A program made the position numbers and the translations under genes. From assembly GCA_024280295.1 (NCBI GenBank), contig JAJRQK010000067.1:1-64000 (forward strand): a DNA stretch of 64,000 bases, given 5' to 3'. Under the pieces are notes generated by a model, which saw only the letters and a program-made list of their open reading frames with translations, made no database searches and was not told the origin of the DNA. The DNA comes from Bacteroidota bacterium. GTDB lineage: Bacteria; Bacteroidota; Bacteroidia; Flavobacteriales_D; Crocinitomicaceae. Below, piece by piece: positions 21,934-46,615 of this stretch; position 1 is the first letter of the stretch; each line of letters opens with the position of its first letter.

Positions 21934-22890
21934 TTAGAAAGATGGACAAGAAATCGTTCTAAATGTTGCAGGGCGGCTCGTACAATTTAGGTTAAAACCA
22001 AGTGAAATTTCATGTGCTCCACCAGAAACCCCGTTGTTCAATTTTGATACAGTGACATCGTAACTATATCCAATTTTAAATTTCTTTGTGTCCATACCAA
22101 TTGTCAATATAAATGCATCTTGATTTCTCAACCATGTCCCGACAGTAAACCCTCCATATTTCACGTAAGTACCGAGGTTTAATTGTTGAAATCCATTTTG
22201 GTAGGTATAAATAATCGAAGGCATAATCACCGTTTTATTCTTGAATTGTGATTTTTGTCCAAGAGGAATATATGCCGACATGTGACCTGTAAATCTCATT
22301 GGAAGTCTTGATTCACCAACAATTAGTGATTCATTCGGGCGGTTTAAGTGATGAACAGCGAGTCCCATGTTGAAATTTTTATTGAACAATACAGTTCCGG
22401 CAGAAGCATCAAAGAAACCACGTGATCCACCTCTTGGAACATCACCAGTTTGATAAATAAATCCACGTCTAGGATCAATCATATCTCCAAAGGTCAACTG
22501 GTCCCAATCCAGAAATTTTTGCCAATAATTTGCTTTTGCACCGAGTAACCAAGTCCATTTTCTATTTAATTTAATGTGATATGAATAAATAATTCCCAAT
22601 TGGGATGAATTTATCGTTTTCGCTTGAACATCATGAACAGCTAGAATACCTATTCCACCATTGATGTTCTCGAAGTAATTATCGTAGGCAGCAGCATAAG
22701 AAACATAAGACCCTGATAGAGACGGCCATTGATTTCGATAATTCATTGCAAAACGAGGACATTGACTCGTTCCTGCTAGGGCTGGATTCAAATAAATTGG
22801 GTTCGAATAAAACTGAGTAAATTCTAAATCTTGGCTATGAACACTCCCACTCATCATCCCTAATAGTATGTAACACACTAACTTTCTCAT
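21934..22890 (-). CDS. PorP/SprF-family outer-membrane protein
   Basis: The 318-residue protein has a signal peptide (to about residue 19, SVHSQ) and the family hallmark QFYSNPIYLNPALAG right after it, then repeated amphipathic beta strands ending in a terminal Phe. PorP/SprF proteins bind the inner face of the outer membrane and work with the type IX secretion system or with individual surface structures such as SprB. Many Bacteroidota carry several copies next to their partner. Here it follows a barrel-containing anti-sigma protein by four bases, so it is probably the last gene of the sigma operon at 25236. Confidence 0.9.
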   Translation of the reverse strand: MRKLVCYILLGMMSGSVHSQDLEFTQFYSNPIYLNPALAGTSQCPRFAMNYRNQWPSLSGSYVSYAAAYDNYFENINGGIGILAVHDVQAKTINSSQLGIIYSYHIKLNRKWTWLLGAKANYWQKFLDWDQLTFGDMIDPRRGFIYQTGDVPRGGSRGFFDASAGTVLFNKNFNMGLAVHHLNRPNESLIVGESRLPMRFTGHMSAYIPLGQKSQFKNKTVIMPSIIYTYQNGFQQLNLGTYVKYGGFTVGTWLRNQDAFILTIGMDTKKFKIGYSYDVTVSKLNNGVSGGAHEISLGFNLNCTSRPATFRTISCPSF

Positions 22891-22894
22891 ACGC

Positions 22895-24751
22895 TTACAA
22901 TTTAATTAGTCGCTGTCCGTAACGACTCTTTTTTGCTTGAACGCGCAAAGTCACTTGATGTGACAACGCTCTCTCACCGGTCATAGTACTTGTAGTATAA
23001 TCTGCATTATAGTGCAAACTAAACTGATCCAGTTTCATTCCTATAGAAGCTGATGGATCCAATTTTTCCGAAGCAGCAATACCTAAGTTCAACCAATTCC
23101 ATTTGAAATTTACACCTGCCCATGCTTCAGAAAGATTTTCTTTTTTCTGATAAACGACATAAGGCGACATACCAAACTTCTCAGTTTTTGACAACCAATC
23201 CGTTCCGATGGTTGCAATAATATGATTTCCTGCTCGTCTTGGCGAAGACCAATCATTAGAATAGATGTTATCGTTATGCTTAAATAAATTATCCGCCTGA
23301 ACTCCTACAAAGAACCATTTTGTATTCACTAACAGACCTACTCCCATGTCTCTATACCAAAGATTGCGCCCAATAGGTTTATCTGCACCTGGATAGAACT
23401 CTTGAGTATTTCCACGATCAAGTTCTACTTGGTTAATACCATCTAACATTTGTGCGTCTAGAATTTTATCACCCATTTTAAATCTGACAGATGGTTCAAT
23501 AGAGAACCAGTTATTGACAGAAAATTTTGGCGAATAAGTGAAGGCAATCTGACCAATGTTAATTCCACCATCGTCATACAGAGAATGATTTAATTGCACT
23601 CCCCATCCGCCTCTGATACCATAAGCATATCCGTCAATAGCAACTTCGCTAATTAACTGTTCATTTTCTTGCCCTAACCATTGAATTCGTGACATTGCTT
23701 GAACTCTAGTAGATATTAAAGTGCCCGCAGAACTGAAACTAATATCATTTGAAGTCAAACCTGGAACATGATAATGTGGATCTCTTGAATTTCGCAAGGC
23801 AATTGGATTATCAGCCATACGTCGAATCATTCTCGACATTCTTTTCAACTTTTTCCCAAACGACAATTTAAGGTTATCACCTACTTTAGATGTCCCATAA
23901 TTCATCTGTTGTGAGCGCTCTACCCATCTATGCTTTCCTGTGTAATCAATTTGCGTGACAGATCGTGTATGGAAATTCTCTCGACCGACAGAAGGCGAAG
24001 AAAAATGATTATTATCGAACCGATTTTCGCTTGAAACTGAATTTTCAGAGGGGGTTAAATTAGTTTGATATGATGCCAATAGTTGAGCTGGTGTACTATT
24101 TTGGTATGAATCGATTCGGATAGAATTTATAGTTTCATTCGTTACAGTATCTCCATATTCAATGAAATTTCGAGTAACAAAATCATTAGAACTTGACGCG
24201 AACCACGATTCGTTAGAGTTAACGGGACGAGAATCATCATTCCAATAGTTTTTAGTCGAATTAGTTTCAAAAACTGGGTTTGAGAATAATTTCGAGAATA
24301 AATATTTCGAGAAAATCAGTTCATCATCTATTCTTAAGTTTTCTTTAACAGTTGATTTATTCATCAATCGAGAGAGTTCAGATTTAAGGTAATCAACCTC
24401 TTGTTCTAGTTTTTCTTGTTTGATTTGGACATTTGCTTTGAGTTCTTTCTCCTCCTCAAGACCAGATGATAGTGTCCAGATTCCAAAAGAGCCAGCTCCA
24501 ACAATCAACAAAAGCAATAAACTTGCAAGATAAATCGCAACAGGTCGTCTTTTACGCTCAAGTGATGCTGTTTCTGGATAAACAATTGAAGTATTTTCTA
24601 CTCGAGCGAGCTCCCACATATCTCGTTCAATATCCAAATCAGGATTTTGCAACAAGAAAAGTTCAAGACGCTGAACTTGCTCAGGAGATAAGTTTCCTTC
24701 CGCTAGCTCAAAAAGCCATAAATCGATATTTGAAAATGAGGGATTACTCAT
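22895..24751 (-). CDS. Fusion of anti-sigma-like N-terminus, membrane helix and PorP/SprF-like barrel
   Basis: Residues 1-60 look like the short helical N-terminus of Bacteroidota anti-sigma factors (ELAEGNLSPEQVQRLELFLL, then QNPDL). One membrane helix follows (about 71-93), then a coiled coil (about 97-131) and some 200 low-complexity Ser/Asn-rich residues. Residues from about 330 to 618 match a PorP/SprF barrel: TRVQAMSRIQWLGQENEQL, TYSPKFSVNNWFSIEPS, RNLWYRDMG, SPRRAGNH. One chain could thus hold a sigma factor in the cytoplasm and sense events in the outer membrane. The start overlaps the sigma gene stop by four bases. Domain limits are by eye. Confidence 0.8.
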   Translation of the reverse strand: MSNPSFSNIDLWLFELAEGNLSPEQVQRLELFLLQNPDLDIERDMWELARVENTSIVYPETASLERKRRPVAIYLASLLLLLIVGAGSFGIWTLSSGLEEEKELKANVQIKQEKLEQEVDYLKSELSRLMNKSTVKENLRIDDELIFSKYLFSKLFSNPVFETNSTKNYWNDDSRPVNSNESWFASSSNDFVTRNFIEYGDTVTNETINSIRIDSYQNSTPAQLLASYQTNLTPSENSVSSENRFDNNHFSSPSVGRENFHTRSVTQIDYTGKHRWVERSQQMNYGTSKVGDNLKLSFGKKLKRMSRMIRRMADNPIALRNSRDPHYHVPGLTSNDISFSSAGTLISTRVQAMSRIQWLGQENEQLISEVAIDGYAYGIRGGWGVQLNHSLYDDGGINIGQIAFTYSPKFSVNNWFSIEPSVRFKMGDKILDAQMLDGINQVELDRGNTQEFYPGADKPIGRNLWYRDMGVGLLVNTKWFFVGVQADNLFKHNDNIYSNDWSSPRRAGNHIIATIGTDWLSKTEKFGMSPYVVYQKKENLSEAWAGVNFKWNWLNLGIAASEKLDPSASIGMKLDQFSLHYNADYTTSTMTGERALSHQVTLRVQAKKSRYGQRLIKL

Positions 24752-25236
24752 ACCAACTCAATCATTCCTTTTAACTGGTTTTTAATTTTTTTTCTAGCCC
24801 TAAACAAATAAACTTTGACTTGTGACTCATTCAGTTCGAGAATTTCGCCGATATCCTTATAGGAATACCCTTGTAAATCACGCAAAAGAATGACACTTTT
24901 TTGAACAGGAGGAAGAATTGATACAGCGCGATCAACAACTTGATGCGACTCAAACGAGTTCACCTTAGTTATACCAGAATCATATTGTGCCATTTCTGCA
25001 CTCAATTTGATTCTTCCCTTGCGAGTTGCAAAGTTGATCATTGCGTTGTGAGCAGTTGTAAACATCCATGATTTTGCTTTCACAAACTCAACCTTCTTCT
25101 TATTCAGCCAAAGTTTCTCGAAAACATCTTGTACAATGTCTTTCGCGTCCTCTTCATTCCGAAGAAAACGAATCGCATATCCGTATAAATTTCCAGATTG
25201 CTCTCTAACGACGATATTGTACTCACTTCTTTTCAA
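24748..25236 (-). CDS. ECF-type RNA polymerase sigma factor
   Basis: The 162-residue protein has sigma region 2 (about 10-75; GYAIRFLRNEEDAKDIVQDV, FEKLWLNKKKVEF) and region 4 (about 105-155; LRDLQGYSYKDIGEILELN) without regions 1 and 3, the pattern of extracytoplasmic-function sigma factors. It probably redirects RNA polymerase when released by the membrane-spanning protein encoded right after it, with which it shares the ATGA overlap. Its target promoters are unknown; the operon itself and cell-surface genes are likely candidates. Confidence 0.92.
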   Translation of the reverse strand: MKRSEYNIVVREQSGNLYGYAIRFLRNEEDAKDIVQDVFEKLWLNKKKVEFVKAKSWMFTTAHNAMINFATRKGRIKLSAEMAQYDSGITKVNSFESHQVVDRAVSILPPVQKSVILLRDLQGYSYKDIGEILELNESQVKVYLFRARKKIKNQLKGMIELV

Positions 25237-25436
25237 AAAAATCTTTGTTCAGTTCTACCAGTTAAAACAAATGAAGACCTGATATTGTTACAGTATATAA
25301 CCTATAAATACTGCTTTTCGGCACATAATCATCTCTTCAATTACCAGAGGAGTACTTCTGTCGAGTAAATACATGAGTTGATCGAATATTTATTTGTGCT
25401 TTTTACCTATTTTCGTACTTCACTAAGAACCCATTC

Positions 25437-34747: not shown

Positions 34748-34767
34748 AATCCGTATTATTGCAAAGT

Positions 34768-37700
34768 ATGGCAAATTTAGTCAAAATATTAGGACGCAGT
34801 TTCGGGATAGTATTCGAGTTGATCTTGATATTCATCATTGCCTTCGCATTTGCAATTCGTACATCTCCCGTTCAAACTTATTTAGCAAATAAAGCAACTG
34901 ATTTCCTATCTAAAGAACTCAAAACCAACATAAAAATTGATAAGGTGTCAATTATCTTCTTTGATGAAGTTGCACTCGATGGATTTTTAATTCTCGATCA
35001 ACAAGGAGATTCCTTATTTTCTGCTGAGACAGTTTACGCCACCATTGATGAAATGCGACTATCAGGTAATTATTTCAAGATTGGAAAACTTAGACTTGAT
35101 CAAGGATATGCTCACATTAAAAAAAATAAATCTGGGGAAATGAATATGCAATTCTTGACAGATTATTTTGCCACTGACAAGAAAAAAGAAAGCAAGAACC
35201 TTGAATTTGCTATTACCTCCGTTGAATTAAATAACTCACGCTTTATTTATGATGATGATAGGAATGAAGAGAAATTATTTGGGGTAGATTACGCGCATCT
35301 TGACGCAAAAAACATTAATGCAAGAATAAATGACATATCAATTATTAATGCTGATATCAAAGCAACAATCGAAGAATTTAGCGCCGAAGAACAATCTGGT
35401 TTCATCCTAGAGAAATTAACCACAAAAACTGATATTTCCACGAACGGAATATTTCTTTCTGAGTTTCATCTAAAATCTGATAAATCATCTATTCATGCAA
35501 CAAAATTCAACTTGAAATCAAGTCAATTATCTGACTTCACCACCTTCGTTGATAGTGTATCTTTTGATGCTGACATTACAGAAAGCACTGTTGCGATGGA
35601 AGATGTGGCTCTTTTCGGTAGAGCTTTAGAAGGGATGGATGAAATTATCCAACTCAAAACCAAAATCTCTAAAAAGGTCAAGAACTTGAAACTCTATGAA
35701 CTCGACGTTCGGATTAAGGAGAAAACAAAAATACAAGGAACGATTAACCTCGTGGATTTTGCTAATCTTGAAAAAGCCTTCTTTCAAGAGCAGATTGATT
35801 ATGCCTATATCGATGTAGAGGAATTAGAAAAAATTAAACTCCCAAAATCATCTTCATCAGAATACCTAGACATGGATGATCGTGTTAAACGATTAAAGTA
35901 CTTTAGGGCTAAAAATGTTTCTTTGATTGGATTCTATTCACAGTTTGTGTTAAATGCAAACCATATTCGAACAGCACTCGGAGGAATAAGAATGGATAAC
36001 GGAATAGTATTCACTCAAAACAAACCCAATAAGTCGCTTCTATTCTCTAAATCCATTGGGAGTTCATACGATATTAAGGTAGAACACTTTAATTTGGGAG
36101 CACTTCTCGGAAGCACTACTCTCGGTGAGGTAGATGGAATTATGAATCTTTCTGGAGAAGCTTTTTCACCGTCCAAAATAGTATTCGACGACATCTCAGG
36201 AGAAATAAACCGATTCGACTTGATGAATTATCCATATTCTAATATCGTCATTGAAAAAGGTACGTTTAAGAACAACATATTTGATGCAAATGTTGAGATA
36301 AATGATCCAAACTTAACAATGAGTTTTATTGGTGGAATTGATTTGAACGGAAGTCAGAATATGTCATTCAAAGCAGACGTTACAGAAGCTGTCCTCAATC
36401 GGCTTGGCTTAACAAATGTCCCTTCATCCTTAGCGACGACTATAGATATCAACCTTGATGGAACCAACATCAATAATTACAACGGAACAGTGATTGTGGA
36501 TTGCTTCTCTTATGTTGAGAATTCGAAGGAGGTAAATATGCCAATTCTAAGCCTTGACATTAGTAGATCTGAAACCATTGACAGTTTTACGATGGAAAGT
36601 TCTATTGCAACGATCGGCATTCAAGGGAAAATCGACTTCACTCACATCTGGTCTCACATTAATAACGCTGTCAGTGAAATTTTCCCTGCACTCTATTCTG
36701 AAAACCATGAAGATACCGATGATCACATTGAGGATTTCTTCAAATTTCAAGTCAAACTTAAAGATGCTAATGAGTTCCTATCCGTTTTTGCTCCTGGAAT
36801 TCGTGTTACAAATGGCACTAGTTTAGAAGGCAATTACGCTGCACAGACTTCAAATTTTAATACAGTTTTTAAATCAGATCTATTCGTTTACAATGAAATG
36901 GAATTTTCTGACTTGCTACTTAACCAAAGAATCACTGCCAATCAACTTGAACTTGAATATCATGTAGATGAATTTAAATATAATGATTCACTAAGTTTCA
37001 ATGATTTATTTTTCACTACCAATGGAGGAGATAATAACCTCATCTCAGAGTTCACATGGGATCAAGAAACCCCCAACGCCTCATCTATTAAGTGGGAAAC
37101 ACATGTAAACGATTTTGATCATTTCAATTTTTTAATTCAACCATCCTACTTCAGTATTAATGAGCGAAAATGGGAAATTACTGATGCCTCAAATTTTAAA
37201 ATTAAGAGTGATACTGTCCAAGTAAAGAAATTCCTCGTAAAGAGAGATCATCAATCGATCAAACTTTCCGGCCAATTCTCTCGACAGGATAAGCATAGAT
37301 TGAAATTTGATATTAAAAGTCTACAACTCGACGAAATTTCTGAGTTTATTTCGGATACCTACAAATTTAAAGGAGAATTAAATTCGTTCGGTTACATTGC
37401 CAATCCATACGATAACTTCCAACATGCTGGTACTGCTCACATAATTGGATTCTATATGGATCAACAGGAAATTGGAGACATTCTAATTAATTCGAAATGG
37501 GATAAACCTAATAAAAGTATTCGGCTGAACGGAGATCTAATGTATAAAGGCCTTAGGAATTTTGATTTCGAAGGCAAGTATTTTGTTGAACGCGAAAAGG
37601 AAAATTTAGAGTTTGACTTAGTTTTTGACAAGACAGACATTGAGTTTACGAATGCATTTATGGATCCCGATGTTCTTGGTGATATTCATGGATTCCTTGA

Positions 37701-39318
37701 CGGCAAAATAAGACTTACGGGATCACCACAAGAACCGCTACTAGTTGGAACAATCGATCTAAAAGATGGCGGTGCGAACGTAGCACTCTTGGGTGCCAAA
37801 TTTGGTTTCTCAGGACCAATTATCATTGATACTGATGGTTTCTTTATCAATGGAATTCCAGTTTCCGATGAGGAAGGAAATACGGGGTCACTTATTGGTG
37901 CTGTTTATCACGATAACTTTCAAGATTTCAACTTTGATTTATTATTTAACCTTGAGGATGATGCAATTAAACGTGACCCTATCCAACCTTGGATAGCAGC
38001 TCCACTTGATCGATTCTTAGTAATGAATTCAACCTATAAACCTGGAGATGTTTATTACGGCAAAGCCTATGTTCGAGGTACAGCTAACATTTTTGGTTAT
38101 GCCAATAATTTAGAGATCACAGTTGATATGGAAAGTCAACGCGGTACAAAAATTAATTTCCCGATGTATGGTGCAGGAGAAATTGCTGCAGAATATGATT
38201 ACATTGAGTTTATTAATCATTCTGCGAATCAAGCCCCAAAACCCCCAAAAATTAATTTTTCTGGCGTTCGATTGGATTTAAATTTCCTAGCTACACCGGA
38301 GGCTGAAATGAAGATAATCTTTAATGAAGACCTTGGAGATATCATCACAGCTACTGGATCAGGCAAAATATCAGTAGTTCTGGACAACTTTGGCGATATA
38401 AAAATGGATGGAACTTATACTATTAAGGATGGAGTATATGATTTCGCGATGGGACCAATCAAACAAAAATTCTTTATTGAGGAAGGGGGGAGTATTGGTT
38501 GGACAGGAAGCCCATATAATGCAAATTTAGATTTAAAGACTTACCATCGCGTTAGTGCTAATATTGCAGAATTAAGTTCCGATAAGTTTGGATCTTCCAA
38601 CTCACACGAAGAAATTCAATGCTACCTCAACCTAAAAGAAACACTCCTTTCTCCTGCAATCGATTTTGATATCAAAGCACCAAATGCAAACGAACGTGGT
38701 AAAACACTTATAAATAGAGTTAAGAGCAATTCAGATGAGCTAAACAGACAGTTTTTCTCTCTTCTCCTCTGGAAGAAATTTCAACCATTATCTGGTGAAA
38801 GTGCTGCGGGAGGGAGTGCTGCGATCGATCTTGTAACGAACCAGATTAATGCACTACTCTCAAAAATATCGAGTGACTACGCATTGAATGTCAATTTAGA
38901 CAATGATGAACTCACTGGAGATAATAGTTTTGAATTCGGTGTAAAAAAAGGATTCCTTGATGATCGACTGTTAATTTCCGGGAGCTTTGGTGTTGAAAGT
39001 CAAAAGAATGCATCAGAAGAAAGCGCATTGATTGGGGATCTAAATCTCGAATACTTACTGAATGAAAGTGGAACTTTTAGAATCAATATCTTCAACGAAT
39101 CGAATGCAAAAAATGTAATCCAGAATAAACAACAAGGAAACTTCACCCAAGGGGCAGGGATTCATTATCAAGAGGATTTCAACACCGTTGAAGATTTCAA
39201 GATGGTGCAATATTTCTTGGATATATTCCGAAAAAAGGACAATAAACGCTATCCCATTAAGCGAAAAAGGCGACAAGTTATCGTTCCGCCAAAAGATGAA
39301 ATAACTTCAAATCCTTGA
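34768..39318 (+). CDS. TamB-like translocation and assembly module protein (DUF490)
   Basis: This very large protein (1516 residues from ATG 34768) has one N-terminal membrane helix (about 8-30) and then over a thousand residues of repeating beta strands, as in the AsmA/TamB group of periplasm-spanning lipid-transfer grooves. The C-terminal 450 residues are TamB domain (for example GSGKISVVLDNFGDIKMDGT and the region after IGWTGSPYNANLDLKTYHR). The family moves phospholipids or helps assemble outer-membrane proteins between the membranes. No partner barrel (TamA) is adjacent. The last 30 residues are Lys/Arg-rich. Confidence 0.88.
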   Translation: MANLVKILGRSFGIVFELILIFIIAFAFAIRTSPVQTYLANKATDFLSKELKTNIKIDKVSIIFFDEVALDGFLILDQQGDSLFSAETVYATIDEMRLSGNYFKIGKLRLDQGYAHIKKNKSGEMNMQFLTDYFATDKKKESKNLEFAITSVELNNSRFIYDDDRNEEKLFGVDYAHLDAKNINARINDISIINADIKATIEEFSAEEQSGFILEKLTTKTDISTNGIFLSEFHLKSDKSSIHATKFNLKSSQLSDFTTFVDSVSFDADITESTVAMEDVALFGRALEGMDEIIQLKTKISKKVKNLKLYELDVRIKEKTKIQGTINLVDFANLEKAFFQEQIDYAYIDVEELEKIKLPKSSSSEYLDMDDRVKRLKYFRAKNVSLIGFYSQFVLNANHIRTALGGIRMDNGIVFTQNKPNKSLLFSKSIGSSYDIKVEHFNLGALLGSTTLGEVDGIMNLSGEAFSPSKIVFDDISGEINRFDLMNYPYSNIVIEKGTFKNNIFDANVEINDPNLTMSFIGGIDLNGSQNMSFKADVTEAVLNRLGLTNVPSSLATTIDINLDGTNINNYNGTVIVDCFSYVENSKEVNMPILSLDISRSETIDSFTMESSIATIGIQGKIDFTHIWSHINNAVSEIFPALYSENHEDTDDHIEDFFKFQVKLKDANEFLSVFAPGIRVTNGTSLEGNYAAQTSNFNTVFKSDLFVYNEMEFSDLLLNQRITANQLELEYHVDEFKYNDSLSFNDLFFTTNGGDNNLISEFTWDQETPNASSIKWETHVNDFDHFNFLIQPSYFSINERKWEITDASNFKIKSDTVQVKKFLVKRDHQSIKLSGQFSRQDKHRLKFDIKSLQLDEISEFISDTYKFKGELNSFGYIANPYDNFQHAGTAHIIGFYMDQQEIGDILINSKWDKPNKSIRLNGDLMYKGLRNFDFEGKYFVEREKENLEFDLVFDKTDIEFTNAFMDPDVLGDIHGFLDGKIRLTGSPQEPLLVGTIDLKDGGANVALLGAKFGFSGPIIIDTDGFFINGIPVSDEEGNTGSLIGAVYHDNFQDFNFDLLFNLEDDAIKRDPIQPWIAAPLDRFLVMNSTYKPGDVYYGKAYVRGTANIFGYANNLEITVDMESQRGTKINFPMYGAGEIAAEYDYIEFINHSANQAPKPPKINFSGVRLDLNFLATPEAEMKIIFNEDLGDIITATGSGKISVVLDNFGDIKMDGTYTIKDGVYDFAMGPIKQKFFIEEGGSIGWTGSPYNANLDLKTYHRVSANIAELSSDKFGSSNSHEEIQCYLNLKETLLSPAIDFDIKAPNANERGKTLINRVKSNSDELNRQFFSLLLWKKFQPLSGESAAGGSAAIDLVTNQINALLSKISSDYALNVNLDNDELTGDNSFEFGVKKGFLDDRLLISGSFGVESQKNASEESALIGDLNLEYLLNESGTFRINIFNESNAKNVIQNKQQGNFTQGAGIHYQEDFNTVEDFKMVQYFLDIFRKKDNKRYPIKRKRRQVIVPPKDEITSNP

Positions 39319-46303: not shown

Positions 46304-46615
46304 TTACTTTTTCTTCTTATTAAACATTTCGAGCATTCTGTGAGTTACAGCAAAACCACCGACTAAATTTATAGTACCTAAAATTATTCCTAAAAAGGCT
46401 AGGCTAAGTGTCAGATAATCGGCTGGATCAGTTTGTCTAATTAAAAGAATTGCGCCAATTAATACCACTCCACTAATAGCATTTGATCCTGACATAAGGG
46501 GTGTATGGAGCACAGTGGGAATACTTGAAATAATTTCAAAGCCTAGAAAAACGGTAAACACTAAAAGGTAAATAATGTCTAAATTGTCGGTTAATAATTG
46601 TAAAATACTGTTCAT
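46304..46615 (-). CDS. pntAB: NAD(P) transhydrogenase, alpha subunit part 2 (membrane)
   Basis: The small subunit of about 103 residues holds three or four membrane helices (YLLVFTVFLGFEIISSIPTV, then LHTPLMSGSNAISGVVLIGA), the conserved LHTPLMSGSNAISG being diagnostic. It completes the proton channel with PntB. Separate PntAA and PntAB genes give the three-subunit form known from Rhodospirillum. ATG 46615 starts five bases after the pntAA stop; the longer frame overlaps pntAA and is rejected. Confidence 0.94.
   Translation of the reverse strand: MNSILQLLTDNLDIIYLLVFTVFLGFEIISSIPTVLHTPLMSGSNAISGVVLIGAILLIRQTDPADYLTLSLAFLGIILGTINLVGGFAVTHRMLEMFNKKKK

Follow-up and report, generated by a model that had tools for sequence, protein, structure and literature searches.

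A PorP/SprF-like C-terminus joined to a putative anti-sigma domain in a conserved ECF sigma operon of Bacteroidota

Genes and protein parts at the locus

The window (the whole stretch of 64,000 nucleotides that was analysed, from contig JAJRQK010000067.1 of assembly GCA_024280295.1) carries three consecutive genes, all on its minus strand, for an ECF sigma factor, a fusion protein and a separate PorP/SprF-family protein; every feature of the locus given below lies on this strand. The sigma factor (24748..25236, 162 aa), identified by ORF call, Pfam and NCBIfam, contains both ECF regions according to Pfam (Sigma70_r4_2 at 5.2e-17 and Sigma70_r2 at 8.6e-12), and its nearest NCBIfam model, NF058625, scored 129.8 bits, just under the cut-off of 130. 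Its TTG start (25234-25236) recurs in four relatives (G016, G019, G022 and G044). As stated in the original prediction, the sigma gene overlaps by four bases (24748-24751) with the fusion gene (22895..24751), whose product of 618 aa was dissected by ORF, Pfam, NCBIfam and hydropathy analysis into an anti-sigma-like domain, an inner-membrane helix, a spacer and a PorP/SprF-like C-terminus. The separate PorP gene announced behind it is indeed present (21934..22890, 318 aa, PF11751 at 9e-56), starts 4 bases past the fusion stop, and belongs to the GldJ-locus type as judged from Pfam, NCBIfam, the tree and its C-tail. Upstream of the sigma gene lies a predicted autoregulatory ECF promoter, TGTAAC-N16-TTGTTTTA (25263..25292), found as an exact match with a PWM score of 26.4. 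Elsewhere in the window, about 9.5 kb from the sigma gene, a TamB-family protein of 1519 residues is encoded (34759-39318; PF04357 at 6.3e-44).

Residues 1-57 of the fusion (24581..24751) probably form a three-helix anti-sigma-like domain with an EGNL motif and no cysteines, an assignment drawn from structure prediction, weak homologue matches and sigma neighbours. Prediction of the N-terminus from its single sequence gave three helices over residues 9-53 with a pLDDT of about 90; EGNL or EGNI was found in 79 of the 80 complete fusions that were compared, and one of these 80 has a cysteine within its first 60 residues. It could be argued that the domain is not an anti-sigma domain at all and that the sigma gene is simply co-transcribed with it, since the fold search with the N-terminus model returned nothing significant (best E 6.2), neither zf-HC2, considered here for the zinc-binding anti-sigma (ZAS) type, nor any other Pfam model matched the N-terminus of the window fusion, and no NCBIfam model matched its first 100 residues. 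We regard this as highly improbable: the domain has a same-strand sigma neighbour in 23 of 29 other loci (a divergent one in 1, none in 5), with E values up to 1 admitted, each of two NCBIfam anti-sigma models matches 6 of the 22 homologues (the best at 7e-4 and 0.003), zf-HC2 is matched by two of six scanned relatives (2e-4 and 2.6e-3, both under its cut-off), and anti-sigma chains, from two entries, account for three of the 12 fold-search rows, none of them significant. Sequence searches for solved relatives gave few rows, all unrelated (best E 1 for the N-terminus, 0.14 for the fusion profile and 0.23 for PorP). We read the N-terminus as an anti-sigma domain without zinc ligands, which would bind the sigma factor encoded beside it. 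Note that the same genome carries a second pair on contig C74 (L098:2315-3795), consisting of an ECF sigma factor (NF058625, 119.6 bits) and a 333-residue protein in which the anti-sigma-like domain occurs twice and Pfam finds no PorP match, and that the TGTAAC-N16-TTGTT promoter is absent upstream of this pair.

The following parts of the fusion also agreed in large part with what had been described. One hydrophobic segment starts at residue 71 (Kyte-Doolittle 2.35) with its positive side preceding it and no second segment after it, so that residues 71-93 (24473..24541) are taken from hydropathy as an inner-membrane helix, with the N-terminus inside by the positive-inside rule. Over the 80 fusions, the best hydrophobic segment starts at residue 63-80 and reaches a Kyte-Doolittle value of at least 1.6 in 74 (lowest 1.25), and no later segment attains 1.6 in any of them. 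Residues 95-325 (23777..24469) constitute by composition a Ser/Asn-rich spacer, presumably periplasmic, which measures 239 aa by the bounds of our script with 33% S/T/N/Q and varies from 124 to 277 residues and from 24 to 48% S/T/N/Q over the 80 fusions. Its disorder was judged from composition, as low pLDDT in the spacer says little when the whole full-length model is poor; the coiled coil of the original prediction was recovered as a predicted helix (residues 98-138) at low confidence only. The PorP_SprF domain was located on residues 342-603 (22943..23728) by PF11751, where its score of 50 bits (E 3.8e-13) exceeds the cut-off of 22.3, and the same model matched 18 of 22 fusions at E up to 0.01. 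The suggested PorP/SprF-like barrel was therefore borne out at the level of the Pfam family, while the fusion stays under the cut-off of TIGR03519 (64.3 bits against 90.55, E 1.2e-17), and the full-length model, built from an alignment of two rows (the window protein and one relative, 68% identical), has a mean pLDDT of 31.6 and leaves the C-terminus and the barrel shape unresolved.

A conserved operon and its PorP-family proteins

A profile of 22 N-termini was searched against 299 genomes sampled from the order, and strong fusion-type matches (E <=1.8e-19, counted by eye) were obtained in 99 of them, the weaker matches beginning at 4.4e-14. All but three of the strong matches (96/99) lie in open frames of at least 497 residues, the others being the broken copy of G030 and frames of 254 and 204 residues; G685, which has a long frame with a partial match, was left out of the 99. 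The fusions occur in families f1, f3, f10, f11 and f13 and in one f9 genome (G700, 64% complete), for which contamination is possible because its fusion closely resembles those of f1. Among 395 genomes of the phylum, in which up to 12 candidates per genome were scored, the window's genome gave the single fusion-type match, and the fusion has thus been seen in one order; weak matches occurred in 45 others, and 29 weaker-match proteins fetched in this search had no PorP match. A named relative, Flavobacteriales bacterium UBA7325, is 67% identical over the best segment.

The 80 complete fusions were retained after setting aside a duplicate (L039), the broken L042 copy and copies cut by contig ends. 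A sigma gene is adjacent in 79 of them, with the 4-base overlap in 67, and the eightieth starts near a contig end; the PorP gene comes next in 73, and five of the other seven stand at contig ends. Two f13 fusions (L169 and L178) are not followed by PorP, which counts against the relay that we propose below. Since the gene order is conserved in the 80 complete fusions, the arrangement is not due to chance, and the comparison of gene neighbourhoods shows a conserved operon made up of the sigma, fusion and PorP genes. After the fusion of L169, a 180-residue protein on the same strand (L169:3345-3887) is found in place of PorP. In G030 (L042:3308-5513), the fusion is split into three frames, as either a recent break or an assembly error, whereas its sigma and PorP genes and its lipoprotein promoter are apparently undamaged.

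In a tree of 96 rows (30 fusion barrels, 25 PorPs from downstream of fusions, 19 GldJ-type PorPs and 22 other PorPs), the 30 fusion barrels are set apart by a branch supported at 100/100 and have much longer branches than the adjacent PorPs. It might be supposed that the barrel does not signal, the fusion being a fixed tether or static brake and the sigma factor being freed through another input at the N-terminus; the signal step is indeed one that we infer, the spacer, of 124-277 aa, is long enough for slack, and barrel conservation is low. This seems to us improbable, as one group of PorP-like barrels has been kept across five families or more, and as the loss of Dma1 or Dma2, the Bacteroides proteins discussed below, acts through the cognate sigma factor (PMC13088901).

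The 25 downstream PorPs mix in the tree with the 19 GldJ-type PorPs, apart from the 22 others. GldJ adjoins the GldJ-type PorP in 17 of 20 fetched stretches, L216 being the wrong place and L214 and L230 having been included by similarity only. In the window's genome, the GldJ-type PorP adjoins GldJ on contig C60; its assignment as the porP-gldK gene was rejected, the neighbour being GldJ (492.3 against 458.2 bits), and gldK lies on contig C25 beside another PorP. Several of the other PorPs of this genome adjoin genes with C-termini that look by eye like those of type IX cargo.

Two cysteines within the last 25 residues are present in 52/52 complete downstream PorPs, in 19/19 GldJ-type PorPs and in one of the 22 others (L103), and the first two sets end in CPSF or CPQF; in the PorP of the window, they are Cys303 and Cys315 and the end is CPSF (21946..21984, read from the sequence). 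Where both copies of a genome are in the tree, the operon PorP and the GldJ-locus PorP are sisters in 5 of 9 genomes. Over ten genomes the two are 62-96% identical, and the 93-96% identity seen in four (L037/L225, L045/L227, L047/L220 and L049/L219) suggests repeated duplication or gene conversion. In F. johnsoniae, the twin cysteines of the SprF C-tail form a disulfide link with GldK, which belongs to the moving gliding track, and PorG is described as linked in the same way (PMC12635249); PorP-like proteins are described as keeping type B cargo at the cell surface (PMC9143113). GldK of the window's genome has several cysteines (the reference residue being F. johnsoniae Cys343). The analogy with the SprF tail is nevertheless only a lead because the cysteine spacing differs, with 11 residues between the two here and one in SprF (Cys-X-Cys).

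The two-cysteine tail was found in 0/80 fusions, 58 of which have no cysteine anywhere. The fusion resembles PorP/SprF carriers in that its C-terminal domain passes the Pfam cut-off, but it begins with the anti-sigma-like domain and the inner-membrane helix, whereas a carrier starts with its barrel, it scores under the TIGR03519 cut-off, and it is without the two-cysteine tail of the putative track-linked type. A fusion anchored in two membranes could not move with the track, and the absence of the tail fits this. In one respect, the link to type IX secretion and gliding that had been proposed is strengthened by these sequences, namely by the GldJ-locus type and the two-cysteine tail of the adjacent PorP.

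Predicted promoter and regulon

The dyad TGTAAC-N16-TTGTT precedes the sigma gene in 71 of 77 loci, and none of 200 single-base shuffles of the upstream set contained it more than once. When one mismatch was permitted, a scan of 11 genomes returned between 5 and 10 matches in each and 71 in total against 69 in the reversed control, so that most genome-wide matches are due to chance, and, in the absence of a genome-wide excess, regulon membership rests on conservation at two places. Even so, the scan recovered the sigma promoter in 7 of 8 fusion-bearing genomes, and genes of one lipoprotein family lie downstream of a match in 5 of these 8 and in 0 of 3 fusion-less genomes. The window's genome has six matches. 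Three of them precede plausible genes, for the sigma factor, a lipoprotein and a DUF3575 protein, none of which belongs to the type IX machinery; the other three lie inside a gene, before short frames only, and on contig C25, where the next 390 bases contain no frame of 100 residues.

The lipoproteins are 118-129 aa long and weakly Ig-like, and their family is present in 78 of 80 relatives, whether these carry the fusion or not, which makes the promoter association testable. For this purpose, a matrix was built only from 76 sigma promoters, with a cut at a score of at least 8 within 260 bases upstream, and G003 (too little upstream sequence) and G070 (no lipoprotein) were dropped. The lipoprotein promoter was found in 33/44 fusion-bearing against 1/20 fusion-less genomes (G043; p 1.7e-7), and within the genus in 28/29 against 0/4 (p 1.2e-4), although these p-values overstate independence, since a single loss may account for all four fusion-less genomes of the genus. 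Of 776 background windows, read on one strand, none passed the same strict cut. A looser setting (spacing 15-17, 320 bases) gave 36/44 against 2/20 (G043 and G047), with 1/776 in the background, and included the exact site of G044, which lies just past 260 bases. In the fusion-less G014, two promoter halves stand 14 apart at the lipoprotein. The link to the lipoprotein is inexact: the strict cut is missed by 11 of the 44 fusion-bearing genomes, all but one of which lie outside the genus, and the looser one is passed by two fusion-less genomes.

None of 19 upstream regions of GldJ-type PorPs passes at spacing 16 (best 6.6), while two pass at spacing 15, with a strong site in G041 (30.0) and a weak one in the window's genome (9.4). 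In G041 (L214), the exact promoter halves lie 187 bases upstream of the GldJ-type PorP, and, to judge from the spacing-15 sites, the regulon of some genomes may include the GldJ-type PorP. A DUF3575 gene was considered as a third member and rejected, as the motif was found in G000 (the window's genome) and G016 only: the other 15 scored orthologues from fusion genomes and 4 from fusion-less ones are below the cut (G038 at 7.2), one having been too short for scoring and seven distant ones having been left out. A weaker promoter-like match in the window, scoring 11.0 at 46320-46349, falls within the gene of one transhydrogenase subunit (PF12769, 46304-46642), shortly ahead of that of the beta subunit (PF02233, 44923-46302), and is probably due to chance. 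The predicted regulon is small, comprising the operon itself and the lipoproteins. Type IX machinery or vesicle genes, which the original prediction proposed to look for after deletion of the fusion gene, were not seen in it, the predicted promoter standing instead before the fusion's own operon and a small lipoprotein operon.

Known systems and a proposed relay

In cell-surface signalling of the FecA-FecR-FecI type, the anti-sigma factor in the inner membrane receives its signal from a carrier-type barrel in the outer membrane. The fusion differs from this type in that barrel and anti-sigma-like domain belong to one polypeptide and in that the barrel is PorP-like and not TonB-dependent. A closer parallel is offered by the Bacteroides Dma proteins, described as having an anti-sigma domain, a membrane helix, a tether, a C-terminal barrel and an ECF sigma neighbour, with vesicle- and glycan-linked roles for Dma1 and Dma2 and a need of Dma1 for NigD1 in vesicle control (PMC13088901). 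An unusual anti-sigma factor of Phocaeicola vulgatus is thought to answer envelope stress, its disruption changed 15 genes, such sigma/anti-sigma pairs occur in all analysed Bacteroides/Phocaeicola species, and the NigD1 family consists of putative lipoproteins (PMC9308784). With both, the fusion shares its domain layout, the ECF sigma neighbour and a small predicted regulon with a lipoprotein; it is unlike Dma in the PorP/SprF family of its C-terminus and in the PorP gene that follows. PF11751 matched in 0 of 14 control genomes, Bacteroides ihuae among them, and Bacteroides barrels of such kind are therefore probably not recognisable as PorP; a Dma-like protein was found neither among the NF058625 neighbours nor among the long PF13568 proteins that were searched. 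We regard the fusion as a counterpart that would work like a Dma with another barrel family, a likeness drawn from the described layout, and not as a proven member. We did not find a PorP/SprF-anti-sigma fusion in the literature searched, most subscription journals being outside its reach, and the available text of PMC9723704 does not describe one.

This parallel also feeds the most serious alternative, a general outer-membrane stress sensor like Dma, in which the PorP-like barrel, recruited from a family of abundant barrels, would serve only as an anchor, and failed barrel insertion or membrane damage, not the status of carriers or cargo, would be the signal. The layout is the same as that of Dma (PMC13088901), the predicted lipoprotein output recalls NigD1 (PMC13088901, PMC9308784), and the envelope-stress role suggested for the P. 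vulgatus relative (PMC9308784) and the long branches of the fusion barrels agree with it. We hold it to be a reasonable but rather unlikely account, because a mere anchor leaves unexplained why 73 of 80 loci have retained a PorP gene next to the fusion, why every complete downstream PorP (52/52) carries the two-cysteine tail, and why PorP copies of the same genome are 93-96% identical in 4 of 10 genomes.

In Porphyromonas gingivalis, the PorXY-SigP/PorA pathway ties an ECF sigma factor to type IX status, with a suggested feedback (PMC7712824). In contrast to the fusion, it is a two-component system with no fused barrel, and SigP controls machinery genes, none of which was seen in the predicted regulon of the fusion (PMC7712824).

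Altogether, we lean towards a relay in one protein, from the outer membrane to the promoter, that senses the state of PorP-type carriers, built on what the genome comparison shows for the operon, the domains, the barrel group, the tails and the promoter association. The sigma factor would read the TGTAAC-N16-TTGTT promoter, and the N-terminus of the fusion would hold it at the inner membrane while the barrel stays anchored in the outer one. Some change of the barrel's state would free the sigma factor by pull or proteolysis, and the freed factor would lead to more sigma, fusion, PorP and lipoproteins. The likeliest signal would be the state of the outer membrane around the PorP-type carriers of type IX secretion and gliding, for example too few carriers for their cargo, and its reader would be a barrel that resembles the carrier but is without the tail by which it could be coupled to the moving track. 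Induction of PorP would then be the corrective step and would close a homeostatic loop. The spacing-15 sites at GldJ-type PorPs slightly favour this relay, and the lipoprotein sites of the fusion-less G043 and G047 slightly disfavour it, which leaves its likelihood where it was. The original idea of a sensor that adjusts transcription is thus partly supported: the layout across both membranes, the sigma/anti-sigma-like pair and the adjacent GldJ-type PorP agree with it, and the sensed signal is our inference from the sequences.

A more specific and more tentative form of the relay, which we consider possible, sees in the fused barrel a stationary copy of a type IX/gliding carrier that acts as a sentinel and competes with the mobile, track-linked PorP over cargo, translocon or track contacts. 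Carrier shortage or failure of the machine would then release the sigma factor, and the induced PorP would restore the balance. If true, type IX secretion and gliding would possess a direct feedback from the outer membrane to the promoter in a single polypeptide.

The route by which the state of the type IX/gliding machinery is passed on to transcription is still being sought; for Porphyromonas, there is a gap between PorA at the cell surface and PorY, the kinase in the inner membrane (PMC7712824). The fusion is a widespread and genetically simple candidate for such a reporter, with a predicted promoter and two predicted outputs. It would also show the dual membrane-spanning layout on a second barrel family, one with a carrier that is disulfide-linked to a moving track (PMC12635249).
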